Shown here: piece after piece, positions 16,899 through 29,129 of the stretch | How the letters are laid out: each line of letters opens with the position of its first letter | Numbering within the stretch: position 1 is the stretch's first letter | Origin: Arenicella sp. | GTDB lineage: Bacteria > Pseudomonadota > Gammaproteobacteria > Arenicellales > Arenicellaceae | Length of the DNA: 52,620 nt | Direction: 5' to 3' | Assembly: GCA_023301745.1 (NCBI GenBank) | Contig: JALZVW010000031.1 | Coordinates: 1-52,620, forward strand | Position numbers and translations under genes: made by a program | Notes under the pieces: model-generated | What the model saw: only the letters and a program-made list of their open reading frames with translations | Databases searched by the model: none | What the model was told of the DNA's origin: nothing

Positions 16899-17370
16899 TA
16901 GTTATGTGCCTATATAAGTTAGGCTTAGCTGGTTAGGCTGCATTCGCTTACTTAAATTCTTCACCTGAATTATAACTCCAATAAATTCGAAGTATAATAG
17001 GCTCAAACAAGCTTCACACTTTTGGTTTTCATGGCATGTCTTCTACTATTCGAGCATAATACACACACTCAAATGGCTAAAGCAGTTTGCACGCCGTTTA
17101 TTTAAACTCTTATTAAAACTTTATCACTTAACTTTGTTCTAGATAGCGCCTGATACTGCTCGGTATAACTAATCATTAGTGCCGCATTACAGTAACTAAG
17201 TGGCTAGATTAGTTCTCAAGCGAGCCATTAAGCAAGCCTAGAACGTAAATAATATAGCTTATTTAGTATGTTACGAGAACATTGTAGAATACAGTTTACG
17301 TTATTTTTAACCTAAACTGTAAGCGAAATTCAGTATTAGTGACCCAAACCCAGGTATTGTGAGCCCGCAA
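16899..17370. promoter_or_regulatory. 472-bp divergent gap between tsaP and def
   Basis: No protein-coding frame is convincing. It must carry the promoters for tsaP (minus) and def (plus). A TATAAT box reads on the plus strand at 16993-16998 but lacks a good -35. A perfect 8-bp inverted repeat ACAGTTTA/TAAACTGT (17291-17298 and 17313-17320, 14-base loop) lies about 50 bases before def. A 13-bp palindrome ACTAATCATTAGT lies at 17167-17179. None can be given a function. Confidence 0.5.
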
Positions 17371-17874
17371 ATGGCCATTTTAGAAATCTTAGTTTATCCA
17401 GATGAACGCCTTAGAACTGTCGCGAAACCCGTCGAGACAGTTGATGAATCAACTCGCCAATTGGTTAAAGACATGACTGAGACCATGTATGACGCCAATG
17501 GTATCGGCCTTGCGGCAACCCAAGTCAACATCCATCAGCAAGTAATTGTTATGGACCTTTCGGATGAGCGCAACGAGCTCAGAGTACTAATTAATCCGAC
17601 CGTGATCGAGCAAGATGGAGAACAAGTATACGATGAAGGCTGCCTCTCAGTGCCCGAATACTACGCGCCGGTGAAACGGGCCGAGAACATAAAGATCAAT
17701 GCGTTAGATGAACAGGGTGAGATTTACCAACTCGAAGCGCACGGGCTACTAGCCGTTTGCATTCAACACGAGATGGACCATCTGGCGGGCAAAGTGTTCG
17801 TCGATTACTTATCGCGCCTGAAGCAAGATCGCATCAAGAAAAAATTTGTAAAACGCGCCCGTTCTTTCGATTAA
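17371..17874 (+). CDS. def: Peptide deformylase
   Basis: A 167-residue iron-type peptide deformylase that removes the formyl group from the start methionine of new proteins. All three motifs are intact: [10 protein letters not shown] (residues 44-53), EGCLSVP with metal ligand Cys91, and HEMDH with His133, Glu134 and His137. The ATG at 17371 gives the family start [14 protein letters not shown]; a GTG 12 bases upstream was rejected because its ribosome-binding spacing is poor and the family does not carry the extra residues. It heads the def-fmt-rsmB run. Confidence 0.97.
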
Positions 17875-17958
17875 TCGAACCGCATTAGCGACGTAATTTA
17901 CTAATACGTATTCAGACAAAAAAATGACTCACCTCGAACCAAAAACTACTTATATTTA

Positions 17959-18924
17959 ATGAAAATTATTTTTGCCGGCACTCCAGCGTTTGCCGTCGCG
18001 CCGCTCAAAGCATTGGCAACAGCGCATGAAGTCGTCGCGGTCTTCACGCAGCCTGACCGCAAAGCTGGCCGTGGTAAAAAACTAACAGCATCTCCAGTAA
18101 AAGAATATGCTTGCGAAATTGGTGTGCCTGTTTTCCAGCCCTCAACATTAAAAGACCAAGCAGGTCTAATACAAGACTTGAATGCCGATATTATGATAGT
18201 GGTAGCTTACGGCATGTTGTTACCGCAAGAAATACTCGACATTCCGCCCTTAGGCTGCTTAAACATTCATGCATCCCTACTACCTCGCTGGCGTGGCGCG
18301 GCGCCAATTCAGCGCGCGATTGAAGCCGGCGATCAACAAACAGGGGTGAGCATAATGCGCATGGAATTGGGCCTCGATACTGGCCCGGTCTTTAAAATGT
18401 TGACCCTCGACATTTCAGACTCTGACACCAGTCAAACTATACATAACCAGCTAGCAACGCTGGGCGCTGATGGCATTTGTCAGGTTGTGCTGGCACTTGA
18501 GAACAACCCAGATATCACACCAACACCTCAAAACCAAGCCTTATCAAACTACGCGAAAAAAATCACCAAAGCTGAAGCTGAACTTGACTGGACAATGTCT
18601 GCCAAGCAACTTCAGCAGCAATTACGCGCTTTTATTCCTTGGCCTGTTAGTCAAACTCAACATCAAGGAACTCGTCTTAGAATTTGGCAGTCGAGCGTCG
18701 TCGAAAGCGAGCACTCAAGTTTGCCCGGCACCATCATCGCGGTCAGCGACTTAGGCGTTGATGTTGCCTGCGCTTCAGGAGCACTACGATTGGAAAAACT
18801 ACAACGTGACGGCAGCAAACCAATGGCTTACTCAGATTTTCGCAACGGTTACAGTTTACCGGTTGGAGACGTTTTAGGCAGTCGGGCTGCACTTGATCTG
18901 GATAAGGAGAACATAAATGGCTAA
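17959..18924 (+). CDS. fmt: Methionyl-tRNA formyltransferase
   Basis: A 321-residue enzyme that formylates initiator Met-tRNA with 10-formyl-tetrahydrofolate, the step that Def later reverses. The N-terminal Rossmann domain shows MKIIFAGTPAFAVAPL and the catalytic region NIHASLLPRWRGAAPIQRAI with the following GVSIMRMELGLDTGP. The C-terminal OB-like tRNA-binding domain begins near residue 205 (AELDWTMSAKQLQQQLRAF). The end overlaps the rsmB start by 8 bases. Confidence 0.97.
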   Translation: MKIIFAGTPAFAVAPLKALATAHEVVAVFTQPDRKAGRGKKLTASPVKEYACEIGVPVFQPSTLKDQAGLIQDLNADIMIVVAYGMLLPQEILDIPPLGCLNIHASLLPRWRGAAPIQRAIEAGDQQTGVSIMRMELGLDTGPVFKMLTLDISDSDTSQTIHNQLATLGADGICQVVLALENNPDITPTPQNQALSNYAKKITKAEAELDWTMSAKQLQQQLRAFIPWPVSQTQHQGTRLRIWQSSVVESEHSSLPGTIIAVSDLGVDVACASGALRLEKLQRDGSKPMAYSDFRNGYSLPVGDVLGSRAALDLDKENING

Positions 18925-20218
18925 ACGCCTAAACGCACGTGCCGCCGCCGCCAAGCTTTCATGGCAAATCATAGACAAAGGCCAGTCACTTGATGCCGCA
19001 ATCTCTGATTTTTTCGAAACAAATGACTACTCGCCCCAAGACAGAGGCTTTGTACAAGAGCTTGTTTACGGCGTATGCCGTTGGTACGGAGAGTTAGACG
19101 CCATTGCCGCGACGCTTTTACGATCACCTATTCGCAATAAAGACCGTGTAGTCCATTTTGTTTTGCTGATTGGCCTATATCAGTTGCGTCATATTGACAC
19201 GCCAGAGCATGCCGGCGTTGATGAAACCGTGTCGGCTTGCAAACAACTGGATAAACAATGGGCCAAAAATGTAATTAACGGGTGCCTACGTAACTATCTC
19301 AGGGCGCCCAACGAATTCGAAGAGGATGTCAATAAAATGAGTCATCCCGAATGGATGCAGCATGCTATTGACAATGCCTGGCCACAGCATTCAGAGGCTA
19401 TTTTCGCGGCCAATAACCAACGCCCGCCAATGTGCCTACGAGTCAATACTCGGCAACAGAGTCGTGATGATTATCGACTTCAACTCAAACAAGTTGGCAT
19501 TGATGCTAGTCTCGATGACAACGCCGATGACGGGCTTATCTTAGCGTCGCCCTGTGCGGTTACCTCTCTACCTGGATTTAATGACGGCACATGCTCGGTG
19601 CAGGACACCGCCGCACAAATTAGCGCAGACTTACTCGATGTTCAAATAGGTATGTCGGTGTTAGACGCCTGTGCCGCTCCTGGGGGGAAAACAGCACACA
19701 TTCTTGAGCGATGTGACAATAACGTCGAAATGCATGCGCTCGATATTTCTGAACGCCGTTGTCAGCAGCTATTGTCGACACTCGCTCGCCTAGAGCTGAC
19801 GGCGAATGTCATTACCGCTGATGCCAGTAAAACTCCGAATTGGAAAATACCTAGCGATGGCTACGATCGTATATTGATAGACGCCCCCTGTAGCGGCCTT
19901 GGCGTGATTCGTCGCCACCCAGATATTAAGCATCATCGCCGCCCGAGCGACATCGACGCTCTGGAAGGCATTCAAACGGCGCTCTTAGATAGCCTTTGGG
20001 CTCAACTAAAGCCCGGTGGCGTCATGCTTTACATGACTTGCTCGGTACTGCCTCGTGAAAATGAACACCAAATCGAACAGTTTGTTGCGCGAACAAACGA
20101 TGCTATGCTCGATGATATACAGCACCCGAGTGCTTTGACTCTTAATTATGGCGCCCAAACATTGCCGGGCGTCCATGGCATGGACGGTTTTTACTATTGC
20201 GTATTGCGAAAACAATAA
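18917..20218 (+). CDS. rsmB: 16S rRNA cytosine-967 C5-methyltransferase
   Basis: A 433-residue RsmB (Sun/Fmu). The N-terminal NusB-like domain (about 1-145, AKLSWQIIDKGQSLD, RGFVQELVYGVCRW) binds RNA. The C-terminal SAM-dependent domain carries VLDACAAPGGKTAHI (SAM site), IDAPCSGLGVIRRHPDIK (motif IV Cys) and YMTCSVLPREN (catalytic motif VI Cys). GGAG precedes the ATG inside the end of fmt. The gene end overlaps the proposed start of the next gene. Confidence 0.96.
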   Translation: MAKRLNARAAAAKLSWQIIDKGQSLDAAISDFFETNDYSPQDRGFVQELVYGVCRWYGELDAIAATLLRSPIRNKDRVVHFVLLIGLYQLRHIDTPEHAGVDETVSACKQLDKQWAKNVINGCLRNYLRAPNEFEEDVNKMSHPEWMQHAIDNAWPQHSEAIFAANNQRPPMCLRVNTRQQSRDDYRLQLKQVGIDASLDDNADDGLILASPCAVTSLPGFNDGTCSVQDTAAQISADLLDVQIGMSVLDACAAPGGKTAHILERCDNNVEMHALDISERRCQQLLSTLARLELTANVITADASKTPNWKIPSDGYDRILIDAPCSGLGVIRRHPDIKHHRRPSDIDALEGIQTALLDSLWAQLKPGGVMLYMTCSVLPRENEHQIEQFVARTNDAMLDDIQHPSALTLNYGAQTLPGVHGMDGFYYCVLRKQ

Positions 20219-20817
20219 ACACCCAGCCCGTTAGACAAACAAGCACTGAGTCTGGGTGTGGGTCTGAGTGCGCGTTATCAACTCAGGCATTCGTCGCGCA
20301 AAAAACAAAGTGGTACGCGATCACTCTTTTAAGCGCTATTTTGTTGCTGGCAAACCCTGCAGCATCCGCTCAAAGTATCACGTATGACGCTGGCGGGCTA
20401 AAAATAGAACTATCAGAAGACGTGCGAGCTGCAATCGACAGTGGCGTTTCTTTGACGTTTGAAAGTCAATTCTCGCATACGAAACGATTCTTTTTTTTTC
20501 AATGGCGCACTGAAGTGGTTCAACATAACTTTGTTGTCACGCGCCACACTTTATCGAATCGGTATCTTGTGCACGAAAACAATAAACCAGCTCCTCATAT
20601 TTTCACCTCGATGCGCGAAACGATGGCATTTATTAGTGAATCAGCTCTGGATCGCTTCGCTAAATATCATTGGCAACAACCACATGCTGCCGATGAACAT
20701 CAGATAAGATTGCGTTTAAGCAAAACTAAACTCCCTGGGCCGATGCGCTTAACCGCCTTCATCGCCGCCGATTGGGACCTAGACTCTGGCTGGAGCTCAT
20801 GGCACTCAGATCAATAA
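20197..20817 (+). CDS. DUF4390 family exported protein
   Basis: Up to 206 residues. The core matches the DUF4390 family by position (between rsmB and ntrY in many gammaproteobacteria) and features such as GLKIELSEDVRAAIDSGVSLTFE and RYLVHENN. A hydrophobic segment (about 40-58) ending in PAASAQS looks like a signal peptide. The start is uncertain: the frame has no ATG before the signal segment, so TTG at 20197 (overlapping rsmB) is used here. The function of the family is unknown; conserved linkage suggests a link to the NtrY sensor that follows. A run of nine T (20491-20499, coding FFFF) is a possible slippage point. Confidence 0.8.
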   Translation: MRIAKTINTQPVRQTSTESGCGSECALSTQAFVAQKTKWYAITLLSAILLLANPAASAQSITYDAGGLKIELSEDVRAAIDSGVSLTFESQFSHTKRFFFFQWRTEVVQHNFVVTRHTLSNRYLVHENNKPAPHIFTSMRETMAFISESALDRFAKYHWQQPHAADEHQIRLRLSKTKLPGPMRLTAFIAADWDLDSGWSSWHSDQ

Positions 20818-23141
20818 TAAAAAAAATATCATCGCCACTCCCGGTGATTTCGGTTTGCACCGGCCTACTCTTTGCTCTGACCTACCTGATCATCAGATCG
20901 CTTAGCGATGATGCTTCTGGTGAATTACAACTGTGGATCACCATCATCGGCAGTCTGGGTATTGCCGTACTGATATTCTTTCTGATCAGCAACGGCTACA
21001 CACTATTCGCACAATATCGGCGCAACGAAATCGGATCGAAGCTAACCGTTAAAATGGTCGTTATATTTTTTTTTCTCACTGTCATTCCTTTTTCGCTAAT
21101 CTATTTCTTCTCGATTCAATTTCTAAATAAAGGGGTCGACAGCTGGTTTGATGTACGCATTGAAAAAACAGTGAAAGACTCCTTATTATTGAGTCAGTCA
21201 GCGCTTGAAGGCATCAAAGAAGAAGTGATTACCGACGTTGAAGAAATCGCCAATAATATTAGCATTAGATTAGAATTAAACAGACTAAAGTTAAATCGCC
21301 CGCTGAGCACAAAAGACCTGGTCGATATTTTAAAAGATCAACGGCGGATCAATGACTACAACGAACTATCGCTGTACAACGACGATGGCCGAATAGTTGC
21401 CTTTTCTATTGTCGATGATGCCAGCATTTTGCCCGACATTCCTGGCGATGAGGTTTTTACAGAGTTACGTTTAAATCAGATTTACAATAGAAAGTTAGAC
21501 CAACCCTATAGCTACACATTGCTAGAACCCATTTCCGAGACCATGCAACAACTGCGAGTGGCGACATTCATTCGTGACAAGCAGTTTGGTCAGTTCTACT
21601 GCCTGCAAGCAATTAAGTTACTGCCTTTGCGTTACGCCAATTTAGCCAGTAGCGTCGAAAGCGCAAACAATCAATATGCTCAAATGGTGTTTGCTCGCGG
21701 CCCATTAAAATTCAGCTTAATCGTAACCTTGAGCCTAATTTCCTTAGCGAGTCTGCTGTTTTCAATCCTCACGGCCGTATATTTGTCTCGCCGACTCGTT
21801 GCGCCTATTTCAAACTTAGCATCAGGCACACAGAAAATTGCCGAAGGTAATTACGGTTCTCATTTACCCGTTACGAGCTCCGATGAACTTGGTATTTTGA
21901 CCAAGTCTTTCAATAATATGAGCAGCAAGATCAGTGAGGCACAACAAATAGCGCTTGCTAGTCAAACCGAAACAGAACAACAAAAAGGGTACCTTGAAGC
22001 GGTGCTTACTAATTTGTCGTCTGGTGTATTTTCTTTTGATGAGAATACATGCTTACAAATATGTAATAGCGCGGCGACTGAAATTTTAGGTTTAGAGCAA
22101 GGTTCGCTGTTAGAGAAATCAGCCGACCAACTGTGTGAACAAGACCATCATGCCCAACAATTTTTCGAGTTAATCAATGCCGGAATTAAATCAAAGCAGA
22201 ATAATTGGCAAGATGAAATCACCTTGCTTGGTACTCATGGGCGCCAAATGTTGATTGTTAGAGGCTCTGTATTACAAATTAACAATGATCTATTTGACGC
22301 GGCTGGCGAAGCCGTAAAACCACTCGAAAATCACGTGGTTGTGTTCGATGACGTCACGAATCTCATTCAAGCTCAGCGTGATGCCGCTTGGGGCGAGGTC
22401 GCACGAAGGCTCGCTCACGAGATCAAAAACCCGCTAACACCTATCCAGCTATCGGCAGAACGCATCAAACTAAAACTGTACGACAAGGTAGATGGGGAAC
22501 TTCAAGAAACACTCGAGCGCAGCACTCGCACCATCGTTCAACAAGTTGAGTCAATGAAAGAAATGGTCAACGCCTTTTCAAGCTATGCCCAACCGGTTAG
22601 AGCTAAGCTCGCCCCGCTCAATGTGAACCAGCTAATAAGAGATGTTGTTGAACTTCATACATCTCATCTAAATAAAATAGAACTGCGTTTAGAGCTTCAC
22701 TCAGACTTGCCAACAATTAAGGCAAACGCGTCAGCCATGCGACAAGTGTTGAACAACCTCGTGATCAATGCGAGTCATGCTCTAGAAGAGACAGAAAAAC
22801 CGACCATTACAGTCCGCACAGACATGGCGGCTAAAGTGACTGGCGAATACATCGATTTGGTCGTTGAGGATAATGGTTCTGGCATTCCTGAAGACATACG
22901 CGAGTCTTTATTCGATCCATACGTGAGCTCGAAAGCGAAGGGTTCTGGTTTAGGCTTAGCCATCGTAAAACGCATTGTCGAAGAGCACAGCGGCTCTGTT
23001 TGGACCCGTAAAGGCTCACAAGGAGGCACAGCAATGCATCTAAGGCTGCCGATCAACGCGATGCAAACCTATCGTGGCAATCGCCGTCAAAATAGTTTAC
23101 ATTCGAGCGATTCTGATGACATCGACCAAGTTATTAAGTAG
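20799..23141 (+). CDS. ntrY: NtrY-like membrane sensor histidine kinase
   Basis: About 780 residues. Hydrophobic helices near residues 10-30, 40-60 and 80-105 precede a periplasmic sensor region (about 110-290). Another membrane helix (near 310-335) leads into a HAMP domain (RRLVAPISNLASGTQKIAEGNYG), a PAS domain, a HisKA domain with phospho-acceptor His in RRLAHEIKNPLTPIQ, and a HATPase domain with N-box NNLVINASHAL, DNGSGIP and GSGLGLAIVKRIV. ATG at 20799 overlaps the DUF4390 stop by 19 bases; GGAG is rather close to it. A TTG at 20772 is possible. It forms a pair with the downstream NtrX-like regulator and probably responds to an envelope or nitrogen/redox cue, which the sequence does not reveal. 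Confidence 0.92.
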   Translation: MALRSIIKKISSPLPVISVCTGLLFALTYLIIRSLSDDASGELQLWITIIGSLGIAVLIFFLISNGYTLFAQYRRNEIGSKLTVKMVVIFFFLTVIPFSLIYFFSIQFLNKGVDSWFDVRIEKTVKDSLLLSQSALEGIKEEVITDVEEIANNISIRLELNRLKLNRPLSTKDLVDILKDQRRINDYNELSLYNDDGRIVAFSIVDDASILPDIPGDEVFTELRLNQIYNRKLDQPYSYTLLEPISETMQQLRVATFIRDKQFGQFYCLQAIKLLPLRYANLASSVESANNQYAQMVFARGPLKFSLIVTLSLISLASLLFSILTAVYLSRRLVAPISNLASGTQKIAEGNYGSHLPVTSSDELGILTKSFNNMSSKISEAQQIALASQTETEQQKGYLEAVLTNLSSGVFSFDENTCLQICNSAATEILGLEQGSLLEKSADQLCEQDHHAQQFFELINAGIKSKQNNWQDEITLLGTHGRQMLIVRGSVLQINNDLFDAAGEAVKPLENHVVVFDDVTNLIQAQRDAAWGEVARRLAHEIKNPLTPIQLSAERIKLKLYDKVDGELQETLERSTRTIVQQVESMKEMVNAFSSYAQPVRAKLAPLNVNQLIRDVVELHTSHLNKIELRLELHSDLPTIKANASAMRQVLNNLVINASHALEETEKPTITVRTDMAAKVTGEYIDLVVEDNGSGIPEDIRESLFDPYVSSKAKGSGLGLAIVKRIVEEHSGSVWTRKGSQGGTAMHLRLPINAMQTYRGNRRQNSLHSSDSDDIDQVIK

Positions 23142-23247
23142 TTTAGTGTTAAAGAAAACTAAACATTCGAAACATTAATCAAAAGTGCCCATTCTAAGAA
23201 TGCCTCAATTCAGTTCAAAAGCACGCCTTTCCTAAGCGAATAAATAG

Positions 23248-24624
23248 ATGAATACTGATCGCCAACATATATTAGTCGTCGATGATGAACCCGATATTCG
23301 CAATATTTTGCAAGACATATTGCAGGACGAAGGTTATAGCGTCAGCGTTGCTGAAAATGCCGACCAAGCACGAGTTCGGTTCAGAGAAGATCAACCCAAT
23401 TTAGTATTGTTGGATATCTGGATGCCCAAAGAAGACGGCATTTCAGTGCTCAAAGACTGGGTTGAAAACCAGGTATTATCCGATACGCCTGTGGTGATGA
23501 TCTCAGGCCATGGCACCGTAGAAAATGCAGTCGAGGCTGTAAAACTTGGGGCCTACGACTTTTTAGAAAAACCGTTGTCGACCGGCAAGCTTCTATTGAG
23601 TGTTGAACGAGGCTTAGAAAATGCATCACTTCGTCGAGAAAACAAACAACTAAAATCTCGGTTAAAGTATAACTCTCCGATGATTTCTAATAGCGACTCT
23701 AGCCGTGAGTTATTGCGTCACATCCAATTGCTAGGCCCTACAGACAGCTGGGTCTTCATTACCGGTGAGTCAGGTACTGGCAAACACTTAGTCGCTCAAA
23801 AAGTACACGAAAACAGCCCTCGTTCAACGGCTTCATTTGTAGAGCTTAACTTAGCCGCCATGCCTAGCGAAGGTGTGGCACAAGCGCTATTCGGAAGCGA
23901 AATCGACGGAAAACTCGTTCTCGGGCGCTTTGAAGAAGCAAAAGGCGGCACCTTATTTATCAATGAGGTGCTAGGGCTTAATTTAGAAACCCAAAACATG
24001 CTATTGAGTGCGCTCCAAGAACGTCAATTTCTGCGTTTAGGTGGCAGTGAATATATAGAACTGGATGTTCGCGTCATTGTTACCACTAGCGGAAACCCGC
24101 AAAAAGCAGTTAACGAAGGCAATTTTAGCGAAGATCTATATTATCGACTGAACGTCATTCCAATCCAAGTTCCAGCTCTTCGCCAACGCCGAAAGGATTT
24201 GCCAGAGCTAATTGAGTTGTTCATTGAAGATGTCGCCAGCAAAAATCAGCTAGAGGTTCCCGAGCTCACTGGTGAGGCCATGACCACTTTAATCGAATAT
24301 AAATGGCCTGGAAATGTTCGCCAGCTGCAAAATGTAATTCAGCGCTTATTAGTACTCAATAGCGGCGACAAAATAGATATAGACTCGATTAAGTCAGCTC
24401 TGGGCGGCGATTTAGATATGCGTCAAAAATCAGCGCAGCTACCCGATTACTTCGAAGGTGATATGCGCCAGGCAAAAGAAGAATTCGAACGCGCCTACTT
24501 GAGTCATCATCTCGAAACAGTTGGCGGAAACGTTAGCCAATTAGCGAAAAAAGTGGGTCTGGAGCGAACTCATTTGTATCGAAAGCTCAAAAGCTTGGAC
24601 CTTAACGCGCGTGACGCCAAGTAA
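23248..24624 (+). CDS. ntrX: NtrX-like response regulator with degenerate sigma54 AAA+ domain
   Basis: 458 residues: a receiver domain (1-120, phospho-acceptor Asp56 in LVLLDIWMP, Lys108 in FLEKPLS), an AAA+ domain (about 145-370) and a Fis-type helix-turn-helix (NVSQLAKKVGLERTHLYRKLK). Walker A is intact (GESGTGK, 173-179). The GAFTGA loop that touches sigma54 is missing: after ALFG the sequence is SEIDGKLVLGRFEEAKGGTLF, and Walker B reads FINE instead of FLDE. DLYYRLN with the likely arginine finger is kept. So it probably cannot remodel sigma54 holoenzyme and may act as a sigma70-type regulator. Partner kinase is the NtrY upstream. Confidence 0.92.
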   Translation: MNTDRQHILVVDDEPDIRNILQDILQDEGYSVSVAENADQARVRFREDQPNLVLLDIWMPKEDGISVLKDWVENQVLSDTPVVMISGHGTVENAVEAVKLGAYDFLEKPLSTGKLLLSVERGLENASLRRENKQLKSRLKYNSPMISNSDSSRELLRHIQLLGPTDSWVFITGESGTGKHLVAQKVHENSPRSTASFVELNLAAMPSEGVAQALFGSEIDGKLVLGRFEEAKGGTLFINEVLGLNLETQNMLLSALQERQFLRLGGSEYIELDVRVIVTTSGNPQKAVNEGNFSEDLYYRLNVIPIQVPALRQRRKDLPELIELFIEDVASKNQLEVPELTGEAMTTLIEYKWPGNVRQLQNVIQRLLVLNSGDKIDIDSIKSALGGDLDMRQKSAQLPDYFEGDMRQAKEEFERAYLSHHLETVGGNVSQLAKKVGLERTHLYRKLKSLDLNARDAK

Positions 24625-24657
24625 CGGCGCTACTTAGGCTTACATAGTGAACGCAAC

Positions 24658-26037
24658 ATGAAAATTCTAATCCTAGGGGCCAGTCAGGTCGGGGTGTCCA
24701 TTGCCGAAGTGTTGGTTGGTGAAGAAAATGATGTCACCATCATCGACGTTAACAGCGACGTGTTACAACAGTTGCAAAATCGTTTGGATATTCGCACAGT
24801 CACGGGCAGTGCCGCTCACCCATCGGTTTTAAGGGCCGCTGGCGCTGAAGATGCCTCACTGATTTTAGCCGTCACCGACAACGACCAGGTCAACTTAGTC
24901 GCATGCCAAATCGCCGAAACTTTTTTTTCCACGCCGACTAAAATTGCGCGCCTACGCTCAAATGAATATTTAAATAACCCCGAATTATTCAGCAGTGAAT
25001 CGGGTTTCCATGTAGATGTTGTCATCTCGCCAGAGAAAATTGTTCGCGATCACATCACTCGTTTAATAGAGTTTCCAGGGGCCTTACAAGTACTCGATTT
25101 CGCTGATGGCTTAGTACAACTAGTCGGCGTTAAGGCGGTCGCCGGGGGCGCTTTAATTAACTGCCCTCTTGAAGAACTCAAAGAGCACATGCCTGGCATT
25201 GAGACCCGTGTAGCCGCTATTTATCGCGATGGTGAGGTCATTACCCCAAAATCCGACACCATCATCAAAGAAGGCGATGAAGTGTTTTTTGTTGCGGCGC
25301 GCGAGCATATTCGAGAAGTCATGAAAGAGATGCGTGGCCAGAGCGATAAGACCAAACGCGTTTTCATCGCTGGAGGCGGCAATATCGGCTTAAATCTAGC
25401 TCGAGAATTAGAACGCAAAGGCTATAGCGTTAAACTTATCGAATTCAATACCGCGAGAGCGGAGCAAATAGCCAAATCAGTACGTAGCACAATTGTGCTC
25501 AACGGCGACGCGGCTGATGCGAACCTTTTACTGCAAGAAAATATCGAAGCGGCCGATGTGTTTTGTGCTGTTACTGAAAAAGACGAAATCAATATTTTGT
25601 CGGCCAATTTAGCCAAACAATTGGGTGCTAAGCGAGTTATGGCGCTGGTAAATAAACCCGCTTACGTCGAACATTTAGAACACCGAGATATCAACGTCAT
25701 CATATCTCCTCGTGTTGCCACCATTGGCAGCGTGTTAGCCCATATTCGACGTGGCGATGTAGTCGCAGTGCACTCATTACGTAGAGGCCGTGCCGAAGCC
25801 ATCGAAGCGATCGCTCACGGTGATGCTAAGTCATCAAAAGTAATTGGTCGTGGCGTTAGAGAGATACCGTTCCCTGAAGGCACAGGCGTTGGTGCAATTG
25901 TTCGCGATCAACAGGTTATTATCCCCAATGTTGACACCATTATTGAACCTGAAGACCATGTAATTATATTCATGGATAACAAGTCGTGCATCGCTGACGT
26001 AGAAGCGCTATTCCAAGTCGCTGTCACCTTCATCTAA
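24658..26037 (+). CDS. trkA: Trk system potassium uptake protein TrkA
   Basis: 459 residues with two RCK units, each an NAD-binding RCK_N (MKILILGASQVGVSIAEVL at 1-19; VFIAGGGNIGLNLAREL near 237) followed by an RCK_C domain. It is the peripheral, nucleotide-sensing subunit that gates the TrkH potassium channel on the inner face of the membrane. The first glycine motif reads GASQVG rather than GAGQVG, a mild change. 29 bases before trkH, so the two are almost certainly one transcript with ntrYX upstream. Confidence 0.96.
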   Translation: MKILILGASQVGVSIAEVLVGEENDVTIIDVNSDVLQQLQNRLDIRTVTGSAAHPSVLRAAGAEDASLILAVTDNDQVNLVACQIAETFFSTPTKIARLRSNEYLNNPELFSSESGFHVDVVISPEKIVRDHITRLIEFPGALQVLDFADGLVQLVGVKAVAGGALINCPLEELKEHMPGIETRVAAIYRDGEVITPKSDTIIKEGDEVFFVAAREHIREVMKEMRGQSDKTKRVFIAGGGNIGLNLARELERKGYSVKLIEFNTARAEQIAKSVRSTIVLNGDAADANLLLQENIEAADVFCAVTEKDEINILSANLAKQLGAKRVMALVNKPAYVEHLEHRDINVIISPRVATIGSVLAHIRRGDVVAVHSLRRGRAEAIEAIAHGDAKSSKVIGRGVREIPFPEGTGVGAIVRDQQVIIPNVDTIIEPEDHVIIFMDNKSCIADVEALFQVAVTFI

Positions 26038-26066
26038 TGCAAACCCCTTAGTGACGGTTACCTACT

Positions 26067-27521
26067 ATGCATTATAAAACCGTTTTAAAAATTCTAGGTG
26101 TACTACTGATTATCTTCAGTGTTACGCACCTAACGCCACTCTTAGTGTCATTAATCTATGATGATGGCAATAGTTTCCCATTTATGGTGTCTTTTTCAGT
26201 CACCTTGCTTACAGGCTTATTTTTATGGGCGCCCGCTCGGAAAAGTAAACGCGATTTGCGCTACCGAGATGGCTTCCTCGTAGTGGTTTTATTCTGGACA
26301 GTGCTTGCAACCTTTGGAGCGCTGCCTTTTTTATTCTCGAGTCACCATTCCTTGAGTGTGACCGATGCATTTTTCGAATCGATGTCTGGCTTAACGACGA
26401 CCGGTGCCACCATTCTCACCGACCTCGATTCTCTACCCCACTCTACACTCTATTACCGCCAGCAACTTCAATGGTTAGGTGGTATGGGCATTGTTGTATT
26501 AGCCGTCGCGATCATGCCTATGCTCGGAATTGGCGGCATGCAGCTTTATCGCGCCGAAACACCAGGGCCAATGAAGGACAGTAAATTAACCCCACGGATA
26601 ACCGAAAGCGCTAAAGCCCTTTGGTATATCTATCTAGGTTTAACGGTACTGTGCATAGTGTGCTATTGGATTGCTGGCATGACCTTGTTTGATGCTATTT
26701 GCCATGCTTTTTCAACCGTCGCTATTGGAGGGTTTTCGACCCATGACGCCAGCCTAGGTTTCTTCAATAGCGCCTCCGTCGAAATTGTTGCCATGGTATT
26801 TATGCTAATAGCCTCAGCTAACTTCTCGTTACACTTTCTAGCCTGGAGAAATAAGTCGATCATGCCTTACCTTCGTGATAGCGAGTACCGATTCTTTCTA
26901 TCAGCTCTTGGGGTTACTGCGATAATTGTCGTGGCATCACTTGTGTCACAAGACCTTTATAGCACCAACAGTTTGGCGGCACGCCAAGGTTTGTTTCATT
27001 TAATCTCCGTAGTAACAACAACAGGCTTCACCTCGACTAACGGCTTCGCTTGGTGGCCTGGGGCACTGCCTGTCTTGTTAATCTTATTTAGCTTCATGGG
27101 TGGTTGCGCTGGCTCTACCGCGGGTGGAATGAAGGTTATGCGCATTCAAATGATGTACAAACAAGGCAGTAAAGAAATCGTGCGTCTAGTGCACCCAAAC
27201 GCCATTTTATCGATCAAGACCGGGGGGCAAGTCATTAGTGACCGAGTCATCAGCACTGTAACCGCGTTTTTCTCGATGTATATTTTCAGCTTTGCGCTGA
27301 CAGGTTTCGCCTTAAGTGCAGCAGGCCTAGATTGGATCACCGCATTTTCAGCCGCCGCCGCTTGCTTGAATAATCTCGGCCCAGGTTTAGCTGAAGTGGC
27401 AAACAACTACGCCAACATCAATGACACAGCAAAGTGGATTCTATCGTTTGCCATGCTATTAGGGCGACTTGAGTTATTTACACTATTGGTGCTTTTCACA
27501 ACCACGTTTTGGCGTGACTAA
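26067..27521 (+). CDS. trkH: Trk potassium transporter membrane subunit TrkH
   Basis: A 484-residue polytopic membrane protein with the four pore-loop selectivity-filter regions of the SKT superfamily: SGLTTTGATIL, STVAIGGFST, VVTTTGFTSTNG and NNLGPGLAEV. These line the K+ path; TrkA binds on the cytoplasmic face. Normal length for the family. Its end is followed by a strong terminator, closing the run that starts at def. Confidence 0.96.
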   Translation: MHYKTVLKILGVLLIIFSVTHLTPLLVSLIYDDGNSFPFMVSFSVTLLTGLFLWAPARKSKRDLRYRDGFLVVVLFWTVLATFGALPFLFSSHHSLSVTDAFFESMSGLTTTGATILTDLDSLPHSTLYYRQQLQWLGGMGIVVLAVAIMPMLGIGGMQLYRAETPGPMKDSKLTPRITESAKALWYIYLGLTVLCIVCYWIAGMTLFDAICHAFSTVAIGGFSTHDASLGFFNSASVEIVAMVFMLIASANFSLHFLAWRNKSIMPYLRDSEYRFFLSALGVTAIIVVASLVSQDLYSTNSLAARQGLFHLISVVTTTGFTSTNGFAWWPGALPVLLILFSFMGGCAGSTAGGMKVMRIQMMYKQGSKEIVRLVHPNAILSIKTGGQVISDRVISTVTAFFSMYIFSFALTGFALSAAGLDWITAFSAAAACLNNLGPGLAEVANNYANINDTAKWILSFAMLLGRLELFTLLVLFTTTFWRD

Positions 27522-27546
27522 AATGCTTTTTCAGACACTCCATCAA

Positions 27547-27582
27547 CATTAAAAAAGGCCGCAATAGCGGCCTTTTTTAATG
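27547..27582. terminator. Bidirectional terminator after trkH
   Basis: Two perfect 16-base inverted arms (27547-27562 and 27567-27582; core GGCCGC-aata-GCGGCC) with A and T tracts on either side. It serves trkH on the plus strand and the DUF2853 gene on the minus strand. Confidence 0.9.
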
Positions 27583-27594
27583 AAAGTCGTGAGT

Positions 27595-27936
27595 CTATTT
27601 ATAAACTGACGCTTTACGAAAATGCTTAGTAAGCAAATAATATACAACCGCGCGGTATTTATTGCGGTTTGATTTTCCATAGATCTTGATCACTTCTTGG
27701 ATTCCCTCATCGAGTTTCGGTGAGTCTTTCAGGCCAAGCTTCTTAATCAAGAAATTTTTCTTTACTCGATCAAGCTCCTTTGGGTCACCACCCGACACCG
27801 TAGAGGCATCCGCATTATAAATTGAAGGGCCGCAACCAATGGTTACCGCTGTCAACAATTTCATATCAGGTTTCATCTCACACTTCTTTTCTAAATCACC
27901 GGCATACTTGGCAATTAAATCATCGCGCTTGCTCAT
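27595..27936 (-). CDS. DUF2853 family small protein
   Basis: A 113-residue cytoplasmic protein recognised as DUF2853 from MSKRDDLIAKYAGDLEKK, VTIGCGPSIYNADASTVSGG and the C-terminal KYRAVVYYLLTKHF. It is highly charged and mostly helical, with no signal or membrane segment. GGGAGATGAGT lies before the ATG. The biological role of the family is not known. It stands alone between the trkH terminator and an acyltransferase gene. Confidence 0.87.
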   Translation of the reverse strand: MSKRDDLIAKYAGDLEKKCEMKPDMKLLTAVTIGCGPSIYNADASTVSGGDPKELDRVKKNFLIKKLGLKDSPKLDEGIQEVIKIYGKSNRNKYRAVVYYLLTKHFRKASVYK

Positions 27937-28100
27937 TACTCATCTCCCAAAATTGGTAGTTAGGGTTAATTATAAATTGTCTAACTCGACTGAGGAAACA
28001 ACTTCTTAAATCCCCAAATTCAAGTCGTGAAACACTGCACACCATCACAGTGCATTTGACAGTACCGTAAGCCCTTTTAAATTAAAAGAGTAATACAGAT

Positions 28101-29129
28101 CTATTTATAAAATTTAACACCCTTGTCAACCTCCTCAGGTGGTCGCGTTTTAAACCGTTTATGTACCCAAAAATATTGTTCTGGATTAGGCCTAATTAAA
28201 TTAGCGACCTCCTCATTCATGCGAGCAGTGTCTACAAATTCATCCCCGCTAGGAAAGTTTTCTAACGCTGGATTTAGAAAAATATCATAACCTCTTCCCC
28301 ATGGCCGAATTCGAGTTCGGCAAGGTATCACTAGAGCGTCAGTCATCTCTGCAAATTTACCCAGCATCGAATACGTGGATGCTAACTCATGAAAGAACGG
28401 CACAAACACACCTTTGCTACCCGCATCTTGATCAGGCAAATAATAAAATGGATGCCCCTGTCGTATCGCTCGAATCAAGTTTCTCATGGGCGCTTTACGT
28501 TCGACCATTACACCGCCGAAACGAGTACGGCCTCGCCTGACGAGTTCATCGATCAAGCCATTTTTAGCGTATTGATACATACTCAGCATTGGCCTTTCTT
28601 GGGCCAGTATGTGCCCGGGAACTTCAATCGCAGCAAAGTGTGGTGCAAGTAGAATAATATTCCGTCCAGAGCTCAATGCGCTATCGTAATCATCTCGCCC
28701 GTGGACAGTGACCAGCTTGTTATAGCGCTTCTGAGATATCCACCAATTCATTGGCGTTGCTAACAATGCCTGCCCCGCCATTTGATAATGGCGGCGATTT
28801 ATTAGCTGGCACTCAGCCGCAGAAAATTCTGGAAAGCAGGCACTTATATTTCTAAAAGCGATACGCCTCCTTGACGCACCCAAAGCGTAAAAAACCAAAC
28901 CAATACCTTGACCTAAAATAGCGACAATGGGTAACGGTAGAACGCTTAAAAGACGAAAAAAACCTAAACCTAACCAAGTTGGCCAATAGCGAGGGTTGAG
29001 AAAAGAGGTGAGAGGGGTAGATTGCACGAAGACTGTCGATAATCGAGTTGCACCAGTAATACTTGATAATATCATATTGTCAGTAAGTTCTGGCACGTCC
29101 AGCGGGTCTTTAGATTCATAGCATCGCAA
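28101..29129 (-). CDS. LpxL/HtrB-type lysophospholipid (lipid A) acyltransferase
   Basis: Up to 342 residues of the bacterial lipid A acyltransferase family. One membrane helix lies near 60-82. The catalytic HX4E motif is His164-Glu169 (APHFAAIE), followed by FGGVMVERKAPMRNLIRAI, YYLPDQDAGSKGVFVPFF and a C-terminal WVHKRFKTRP, all typical of HtrB/LpxL. It probably transfers a secondary acyl chain to the lipid A precursor at the inner membrane. The start is unsure: the first 18 residues are unlike the family, and ATG at 29075 (residue 19) is also possible and would leave more room for the divergent msrB promoter. Confidence 0.88.
   Translation of the reverse strand: MRCYESKDPLDVPELTDNMILSSITGATRLSTVFVQSTPLTSFLNPRYWPTWLGLGFFRLLSVLPLPIVAILGQGIGLVFYALGASRRRIAFRNISACFPEFSAAECQLINRRHYQMAGQALLATPMNWWISQKRYNKLVTVHGRDDYDSALSSGRNIILLAPHFAAIEVPGHILAQERPMLSMYQYAKNGLIDELVRRGRTRFGGVMVERKAPMRNLIRAIRQGHPFYYLPDQDAGSKGVFVPFFHELASTYSMLGKFAEMTDALVIPCRTRIRPWGRGYDIFLNPALENFPSGDEFVDTARMNEEVANLIRPNPEQYFWVHKRFKTRPPEEVDKGVKFYK

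Follow-up and report, generated by a model that had tools for sequence, protein, structure and literature searches.

What does a regulator with the build of a sigma54 enhancer-binding protein do once the loop that contacts sigma54 is gone? The question is raised by a gene on the forward strand (23248-24624) of the window, the 52,620-nucleotide stretch of Arenicella sp. DNA analysed here. The original prediction read its product as an NtrX-like regulator with receiver, Walker A and Fis domain intact, no GAFTGA loop after ALFG and Asn in place of the Walker B Asp, a protein that could not be expected to open sigma54 complexes and might act as a direct DNA-binding regulator. The gene is a single open frame without internal stops, running from ATG at 23248 to a stop ending at 24624 and encoding 458 amino acids. 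It and its parts are as follows.

23248..24624, + strand: NtrX-type response regulator without a GAFTGA loop (open reading frame, Pfam, NCBIfam, PDB match, alignments)
23413..23415, + strand: phospho-acceptor Asp56 of the receiver (Asp in 206 of the 206 cluster-linked NtrX proteins surveyed below)
23764..23787, + strand: Walker A, GESGTGKH, residues 173-180, intact (sequence)
23896..23925, + strand: shortened L1 region, SEIDGKLVLG, replacing the GAFTGA loop (alignment; short hairpin in the AlphaFold2 model)
23944..23970, + strand: Walker B, GGTLFINEV, with Asn239 for Asp and Glu240 kept (sequence; codons in 17 genomes)
24088..24147, + strand: sensor I (Ser281 for Asn) to R-finger region (Ser294 for Arg, Arg300 kept) (alignment)
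24472..24603, + strand: Fis-type helix-turn-helix (HTH), residues 409-452 (PF02954; ERTHLYRK-type helix conserved)

Pfam placed four domains above their cut-offs, namely the receiver (PF00072, residues 8-119), Sigma54_activat (PF00158, 145-307), the lid (PF25601, 312-390) and HTH_8 (PF02954, 411-448); with the complete GESGTGKH motif, this agrees with the domains predicted to be intact. The phospho-acceptor Asp56, the acidic pocket residues Asp12 and Asp13 and the conserved Lys108 were invariant in a 21-row alignment, as is required of a response regulator. Among NCBIfam models the NtrX equivalog NF051870 came first (residues 7-451) at 463 bits, short of its curated cut-off of 600, and the label NtrX-type rests on this best model match, the structure match and the neighbouring ntrY gene, not on that cut-off. 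The best PDB match by sequence was Brucella NtrX (E 1.1e-105).

After ALFG (residues 213-216) the protein reads SEIDGKLVLGRFEEA, where the loop-bearing relative L045 has HEKGAFTGAVSSKKGKFDMA, and the alignment leaves the window protein five residues shorter at this place, as predicted. The Walker B change was likewise found, residue 239 being Asn with Glu240 kept. Two departures come in addition to those of the original prediction, Ser281 at sensor I and Ser294 at the first of the two R-finger-region Arg positions; the roles of residues 281, 294 and 300 in sensor I and the R-finger region are assumed by us from PspF and NtrC. The receiver/AAA+/Fis-HTH architecture and fold of a sigma54 enhancer-binding protein were thus recognised by Pfam, the AlphaFold2 model and structure matches, while the GAFTGA loop, a full Walker B and the complete pair of R-finger-region Arg residues were missing (Asn239 and Ser294; Glu240 and Arg300 kept). 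The AlphaFold2 model (mean pLDDT 84, pTM 0.55) places a short hairpin at the loop position, with strands at 216-219 and 222-225. Over most of the chain it matched Brucella NtrX and NtrC1 in VIA-align with Z 33-35 and rmsd 11-15, the latter reflecting domain arrangement, and to AAA+ domains alone the fit was close, with Z about 30 and rmsd of 1.6-1.9. In Foldseek, Brucella NtrX took the first six rows; it was also among the top VIA-align rows. Vibrio cholerae VpsR was a structural match in both programs, with the difference that its structures are titled c-di-GMP-binding. The AAA+ core is accordingly modelled, and so predicted, to fold as in NtrC.

A sequencing error, a recombinant contig or a decaying pseudogene might also present itself in this way, and the genome is a 191-contig assembly. 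However, the same changes recur in all 17 NtrX genes obtained from 18 genomes of the genus, none of which has GAFTGA and all of which carry Asn239 (codon AAT or AAC), which excludes sequencing error, including the base-calling error hiding a GAFTGA sequence that would have overturned the prediction. The frame is open, the gene cluster described below is intact, and non-synonymous divergence of ntrX within the genus was far below synonymous divergence where measurable. Since synonymous sites were saturated and dN/dS mostly unusable (of 136 pairs, 8-11 were usable for receiver, AAA core, lid and HTH, and 28-30 for the two linkers), amino-acid identity was used instead. Within the genus, receiver, HTH and lid had mean identities of 0.85, 0.82 and 0.59 and the AAA core one of 0.81, so the core is about as conserved as the receiver and HTH and the gene is not dead. 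An artefact or pseudogene is contradicted by these data and is given practically no chance by us.

Within the genus, Ser at sensor I was found in 17/17 NtrX, whereas Ser was not fixed at position 294 (Ser 11, Arg 4, Leu 2), and position 300 held Arg in 14 and His in 3. The 18th genome (G009) gave only a 35%-identity NtrC-like match; with a completeness of 85 and about 310 contigs, ntrX may be missing from this assembly. Several NtrC-like matches of about 35% identity, G012:C8, G002:C18 and G015:C3 among them, show one internal stop each, possibly where the alignment runs past the gene end. The window's own genome also carries a second regulator, L083 (G000:C104, 1024-2418, + strand), with a receiver and an enhancer-binding-protein-like core without GAFTGA; it has ILSDF at the Walker B place, adjoins a histidine kinase gene and lies outside the rsmB-plrP-ntrY-ntrX cluster.

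The surroundings of ntrX consist of six genes in a row on the + strand, rsmB-like, DUF4390, ntrY, ntrX, trkA and trkH, the other five of which are listed here.

18917..20218, + strand: rsmB-like 16S rRNA methyltransferase, first gene of the cluster (open reading frame; homologues by blastp in related loci)
20197..20817, + strand: DUF4390 protein, PlrP-like, start codon unsure (PF14334, E 2.4e-19)
20772..23141, + strand: NtrY-like sensor histidine kinase with HAMP, PAS, HisKA and HATPase, start codon unsure (Pfam)
24658..26037, + strand: trkA, potassium uptake regulatory subunit (PF02254/PF02080)
26067..27521, + strand: trkH, potassium channel subunit (PF02386)

The name rsmB is our presumption for the first gene and fits its position and the cluster order. 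With rsmB and a DUF4390 gene preceding the NtrY-like kinase and the regulator, the locus shows the arrangement that marks the PlrPSR subtype, and its gene order is that of Bordetella, rsmB-plrP-plrS-plrR-trkA-trkH, as given in excerpts of PMC13001219. For Bordetella PlrP, a DUF4390 protein, the same excerpts describe genetic evidence for a third component acting on the phosphatase activity of the kinase, and by analogy the DUF4390 protein of the window would be such a third component. DUF4390 was present in 246 of 370 genomes of the class. One DUF4390 locus (L264) has an NtrY-like kinase, and NtrX was not found there by blastp over 8.4 kb. The potassium uptake genes do follow ntrX in the same run, as originally noted, and in the 185 rows that extend 1.6 kb or more past ntrX, trkA was found in 135 at up to 7 kb on the same strand and, by stop-to-stop frames, no more than 500 bp downstream in 118. 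Among 198 plrS homologues, potassium genes were linked in 27% and 23% as against 98% for rsmB and the DUF4390 gene (PMC13001219). This linkage is the looser one, and it says little about the targets of NtrX.

A candidate for control of ntrX itself was found in the 3′ end of ntrY.

23064..23104 (about), + strand: conserved synonymous-codon stretch, candidate ntrX promoter or control site (codon comparison in the genus)

The 15 best of 390 twelve-codon windows, compared over 16-17 congeners, all fall in the last ~25 ntrY codons, the top one with a codon identity of 0.81 observed versus 0.44 expected, and a similar peak was absent in three other clades. The stretch occurs as a single copy in its own genome at 0-1 mismatch; at 2 mismatches there were six genome matches, against six for a reversed control pattern. 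Its position agrees with that in Bordetella, where a promoter for the regulator sits in the 3′ end of plrS in the published excerpts (PMC13001219), and we regard it as a candidate element at the DNA or RNA level, for instance the promoter of ntrX. It was not among the sigma70-like or sigma54-like sites found, and sigma70-like sites were near expectation at 17000-28100 (15 found, 16.6 expected), a region with 19 terminator-like sites where 11.6 were expected. The alphaproteobacterial NtrX site CAAN2-5TTG was absent from the 361 bp before ntrX (22900-23260); near the cluster it had three matches, one each before rsmB, plrP and trkA, at background density, the whole window holding 129 (2.45 per kb). 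No Rfam family reached its gathering score at 17000-28500. An inverted repeat lies directly after ntrY (23141/23158).

In order to place the window protein among its relatives, as the original prediction had proposed, NtrX sequences were pooled from the best 80 genome-contig matches, loci from relatives and 120 hand-chosen stretches. Of these stretches, 110 came from the 246 genomes with DUF4390, with a single stretch for most families, and 10 came from relatives. A regulator was obtained from 229 loci, the window included, one of them being an NtrC outgroup (L081), and from neither L183 nor L264; removal of six duplicates left 223 rows. NtrX was counted as cluster-linked if ntrY, together with one or more of the genes plrP, rsmB and trkA, lay on its strand no more than 7 kb away; this applied to 206 of these rows, a non-random sample biased to query-like proteins. 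A GAFTGA-like loop was present in 0/206 and the receiver Asp in 206/206. All 31 NtrC controls, of which one belongs to the window's genome and 30 come from the 38 matching of 40 searched genomes sampled for NtrX, kept GAFTGA, the five catalytic residues, the receiver Asp and the sensor II Arg. Loop-bearing pool rows were L045, L072, L077, L078 and L080, whose titles are not gammaproteobacterial, and the NtrC outgroup; L079, the sole row titled Alphaproteobacteria, fell outside them on the tree, beside a long root branch. Excerpts of two papers report NtrX without the GAFTGA loop in Caulobacter (PMC10274813) and Thioalkalivibrio (PMC5744179). On the sequences compared, GAFTGA loss is ordinary for NtrX and common to the sampled gamma- and betaproteobacterial cluster-linked proteins, and a loss peculiar to the window protein is not supported. 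The Walker B change follows the lineage: Asn239 is found in 17/17 genus members and in L108, of another genus in the same family, while L113 and L115 of that family keep Asp. From these sequences, Walker B Asn is the lineage-specific part of the change, a genus-level step in a wide and repeated ATPase decay.

These counts bear on the idea that NtrX has retained a role at sigma54 promoters, either by forming mixed rings with NtrC or by means of another loop. The window's genome does carry a sigma54 gene and an NtrC with GAFTGA, so the loop was not lost for want of sigma54, and the predicted fold is that of an enhancer-binding protein. The loop is nevertheless missing from every one of the 206 relatives, the window protein has substitutions at Walker B, at sensor I and at one of the R-finger-region Arg positions, and sigma54-type sites in the window, with 2 mismatches allowed, stayed at chance level (30 found, 31 expected). 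We hold sigma54 action to be very unlikely. As originally predicted, no opening of sigma54 complexes would be expected, since nothing in the sequence suggests sigma54 contact or remodelling.

A second alternative gives the AAA+ core an active role, as a working nucleotide switch in which oligomerisation is driven by the binding of ATP and not by its hydrolysis, and in which activation at sigma70 promoters requires that binding; it differs from our explanation, with which it is compatible, in that role alone. The Walker A Lys is present in the window protein and in 162/206 relatives, the core is well conserved within the genus, and, to judge by structure titles, crystals of Brucella NtrX have been obtained with either ATP or ADP. 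This protein is reported to bind ATP and not to hydrolyse it. A precedent is R. capsulatus NtrC, for which ATP binding rather than hydrolysis is described as needed, while hydrolysis is argued to matter for Caulobacter NtrC (both in excerpts of PMC10274813). With Walker A intact, the core in the window's lineage probably still binds nucleotide. Against the switch, the Walker A Lys is replaced by Arg in 39/206, and in the order of genome G268, described below, it is absent from 19 of 19 long NtrX proteins, with the whole AAA+ domain absent from 19 more; nucleotide binding is thus not a general need. We regard the switch as possible, with the balance somewhat against it.

The remaining catalytic positions were lost to different degrees. 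Walker B Asp was kept in 96/206 cluster-linked NtrX (Asn in 37), Walker B Glu in 144/206, the first and second R-finger-region Arg in 168/206 and 65/206, and sensor II Arg in 179/206. Asn at sensor I (position 281) was counted in the NtrX pool alone, where 29 of the 222 rows with a residue at this position had it. All five catalytic residues (Lys, Asp, Glu, Arg, Arg) were present together in 30/206, and some members of the family may therefore still turn over ATP. The commonest residue had a mean frequency over the 206 rows of 0.59 in the core, 0.62 in the lid, 0.76 in the receiver and 0.70 in the HTH. On a FastTree of the 223 rows with trait columns removed, a method rated below more careful tree building, Walker B Asp required at least 25 changes, Walker B Glu 20, sensor II Arg 21, the second and first R-finger-region Arg 19 and 17, and Walker A Lys 11. 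These minimum counts alone do not separate losses from gains; on the assumption that it never came back, Walker B Asp disappeared 35 times on this tree. The window's genus lies inside a 48-row branch with many rows keeping the catalytic set.

The order of G268 extends this picture. A short NtrX query matched 79 of its 80 genomes, with open frames of at most 343 amino acids in 20 and at least 411 in 59. NtrX was read in 42 loci, 38 after four duplicates were dropped; 19 of the 38 are 210-275 amino acids long with the AAA+ domain absent, and the other 19, of 417-433 amino acids, include none with the Walker A Lys. All 38 keep the receiver Asp. One of the short forms, L319, may keep an AAA+ remnant. 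A tree of receiver plus HTH, with 55 rows and 19 of its forks open, showed 5 changes between short and long forms, and the number of separate AAA+ excisions is unsure. The order is probably betaproteobacterial, judging from the short forms and from the GTDB placing of the betaproteobacterial group, which we assume here. Betaproteobacterial NtrX is said in excerpts of PMC13001219, itself citing another paper, to lack the AAA+ domain, unlike the window protein, which keeps it; from the sequences read here, that statement would hold for part of them only.

Taken jointly, we think it fairly likely that these proteins form a decay series, in which the loop is gone throughout, catalytic residues are lost repeatedly in varied combinations, Walker A goes next and the domain is excised last, the receiver Asp and the DNA-binding helix stay fixed, the window's genus represents one early, separate step, and much of the order of G268 stands in mid-series, not at its end. 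The order of loop first, residues next and domain last is our interpretation of the sequence pattern. In the literature searched, mostly outside subscription papers, no account of catalytic decay in gammaproteobacterial NtrX was found.

Known systems help in deciding how such a protein could act. Brucella abortus NtrX (PDB 5m7n, 5m7o, 5m7p) shares the domain order receiver, AAA+, Fis-type HTH and lacks the GAFTGA loop in alignment with the window protein, though it keeps the Walker B Asp (GGILYLDEV). In alphaproteobacteria ntrYX is described as lying beside ntrBC and not in an rsmB-plrP cluster (excerpts of PMC13001219). The NtrC proteins of Caulobacter and Rhodobacter capsulatus, which differ from the window protein in being NtrC, are likewise enhancer-binding-protein relatives without GAFTGA, and they act at sigma70 promoters, as does Vibrio cholerae VspR, again without GAFTGA, which in the excerpts of PMC10274813 needs no phosphorylation, unlike the control proposed here. 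Direct promoter binding by NtrX is published for Sinorhizobium, in the phosphorylated form, and for Brucella (PMC9223101, in part), which by analogy argues for the direct DNA-binding regulator originally suggested.

We consider it likely that the window protein is the PlrR-type NtrX belonging to the rsmB-plrP-ntrY-ntrX cluster of gamma- and betaproteobacteria, and that it works as a DNA-binding regulator under the control of phosphorylation, independently of sigma54 and with a core that is a pseudo-ATPase. Asp56 would be phosphorylated by NtrY, on which the DUF4390 protein perhaps has a tuning effect, and phosphorylated NtrX, probably as a dimer, would bind DNA through its Fis-type HTH and activate or repress ordinary sigma70-type promoters according to position, presumably without ATP hydrolysis and without sigma54. 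In our reading, the AAA+ core is a pseudo-ATPase that serves as a scaffold linking the receiver to the HTH.

NtrX proteins are still listed as putative sigma54 activators (table 2 of PMC5744179; PMC12194929; both in excerpt), although the window protein and its sampled relatives are without what sigma54 action needs. If true, the decay series refines the published statement on betaproteobacterial NtrX without AAA+, and it offers a natural experiment in the change from a motor-driven activator to an ordinary regulator and in which parts of the AAA+ domain outlast catalysis. For the widespread NtrYX/PlrPSR cluster, the prediction is that its targets should be sigma70-type promoters.
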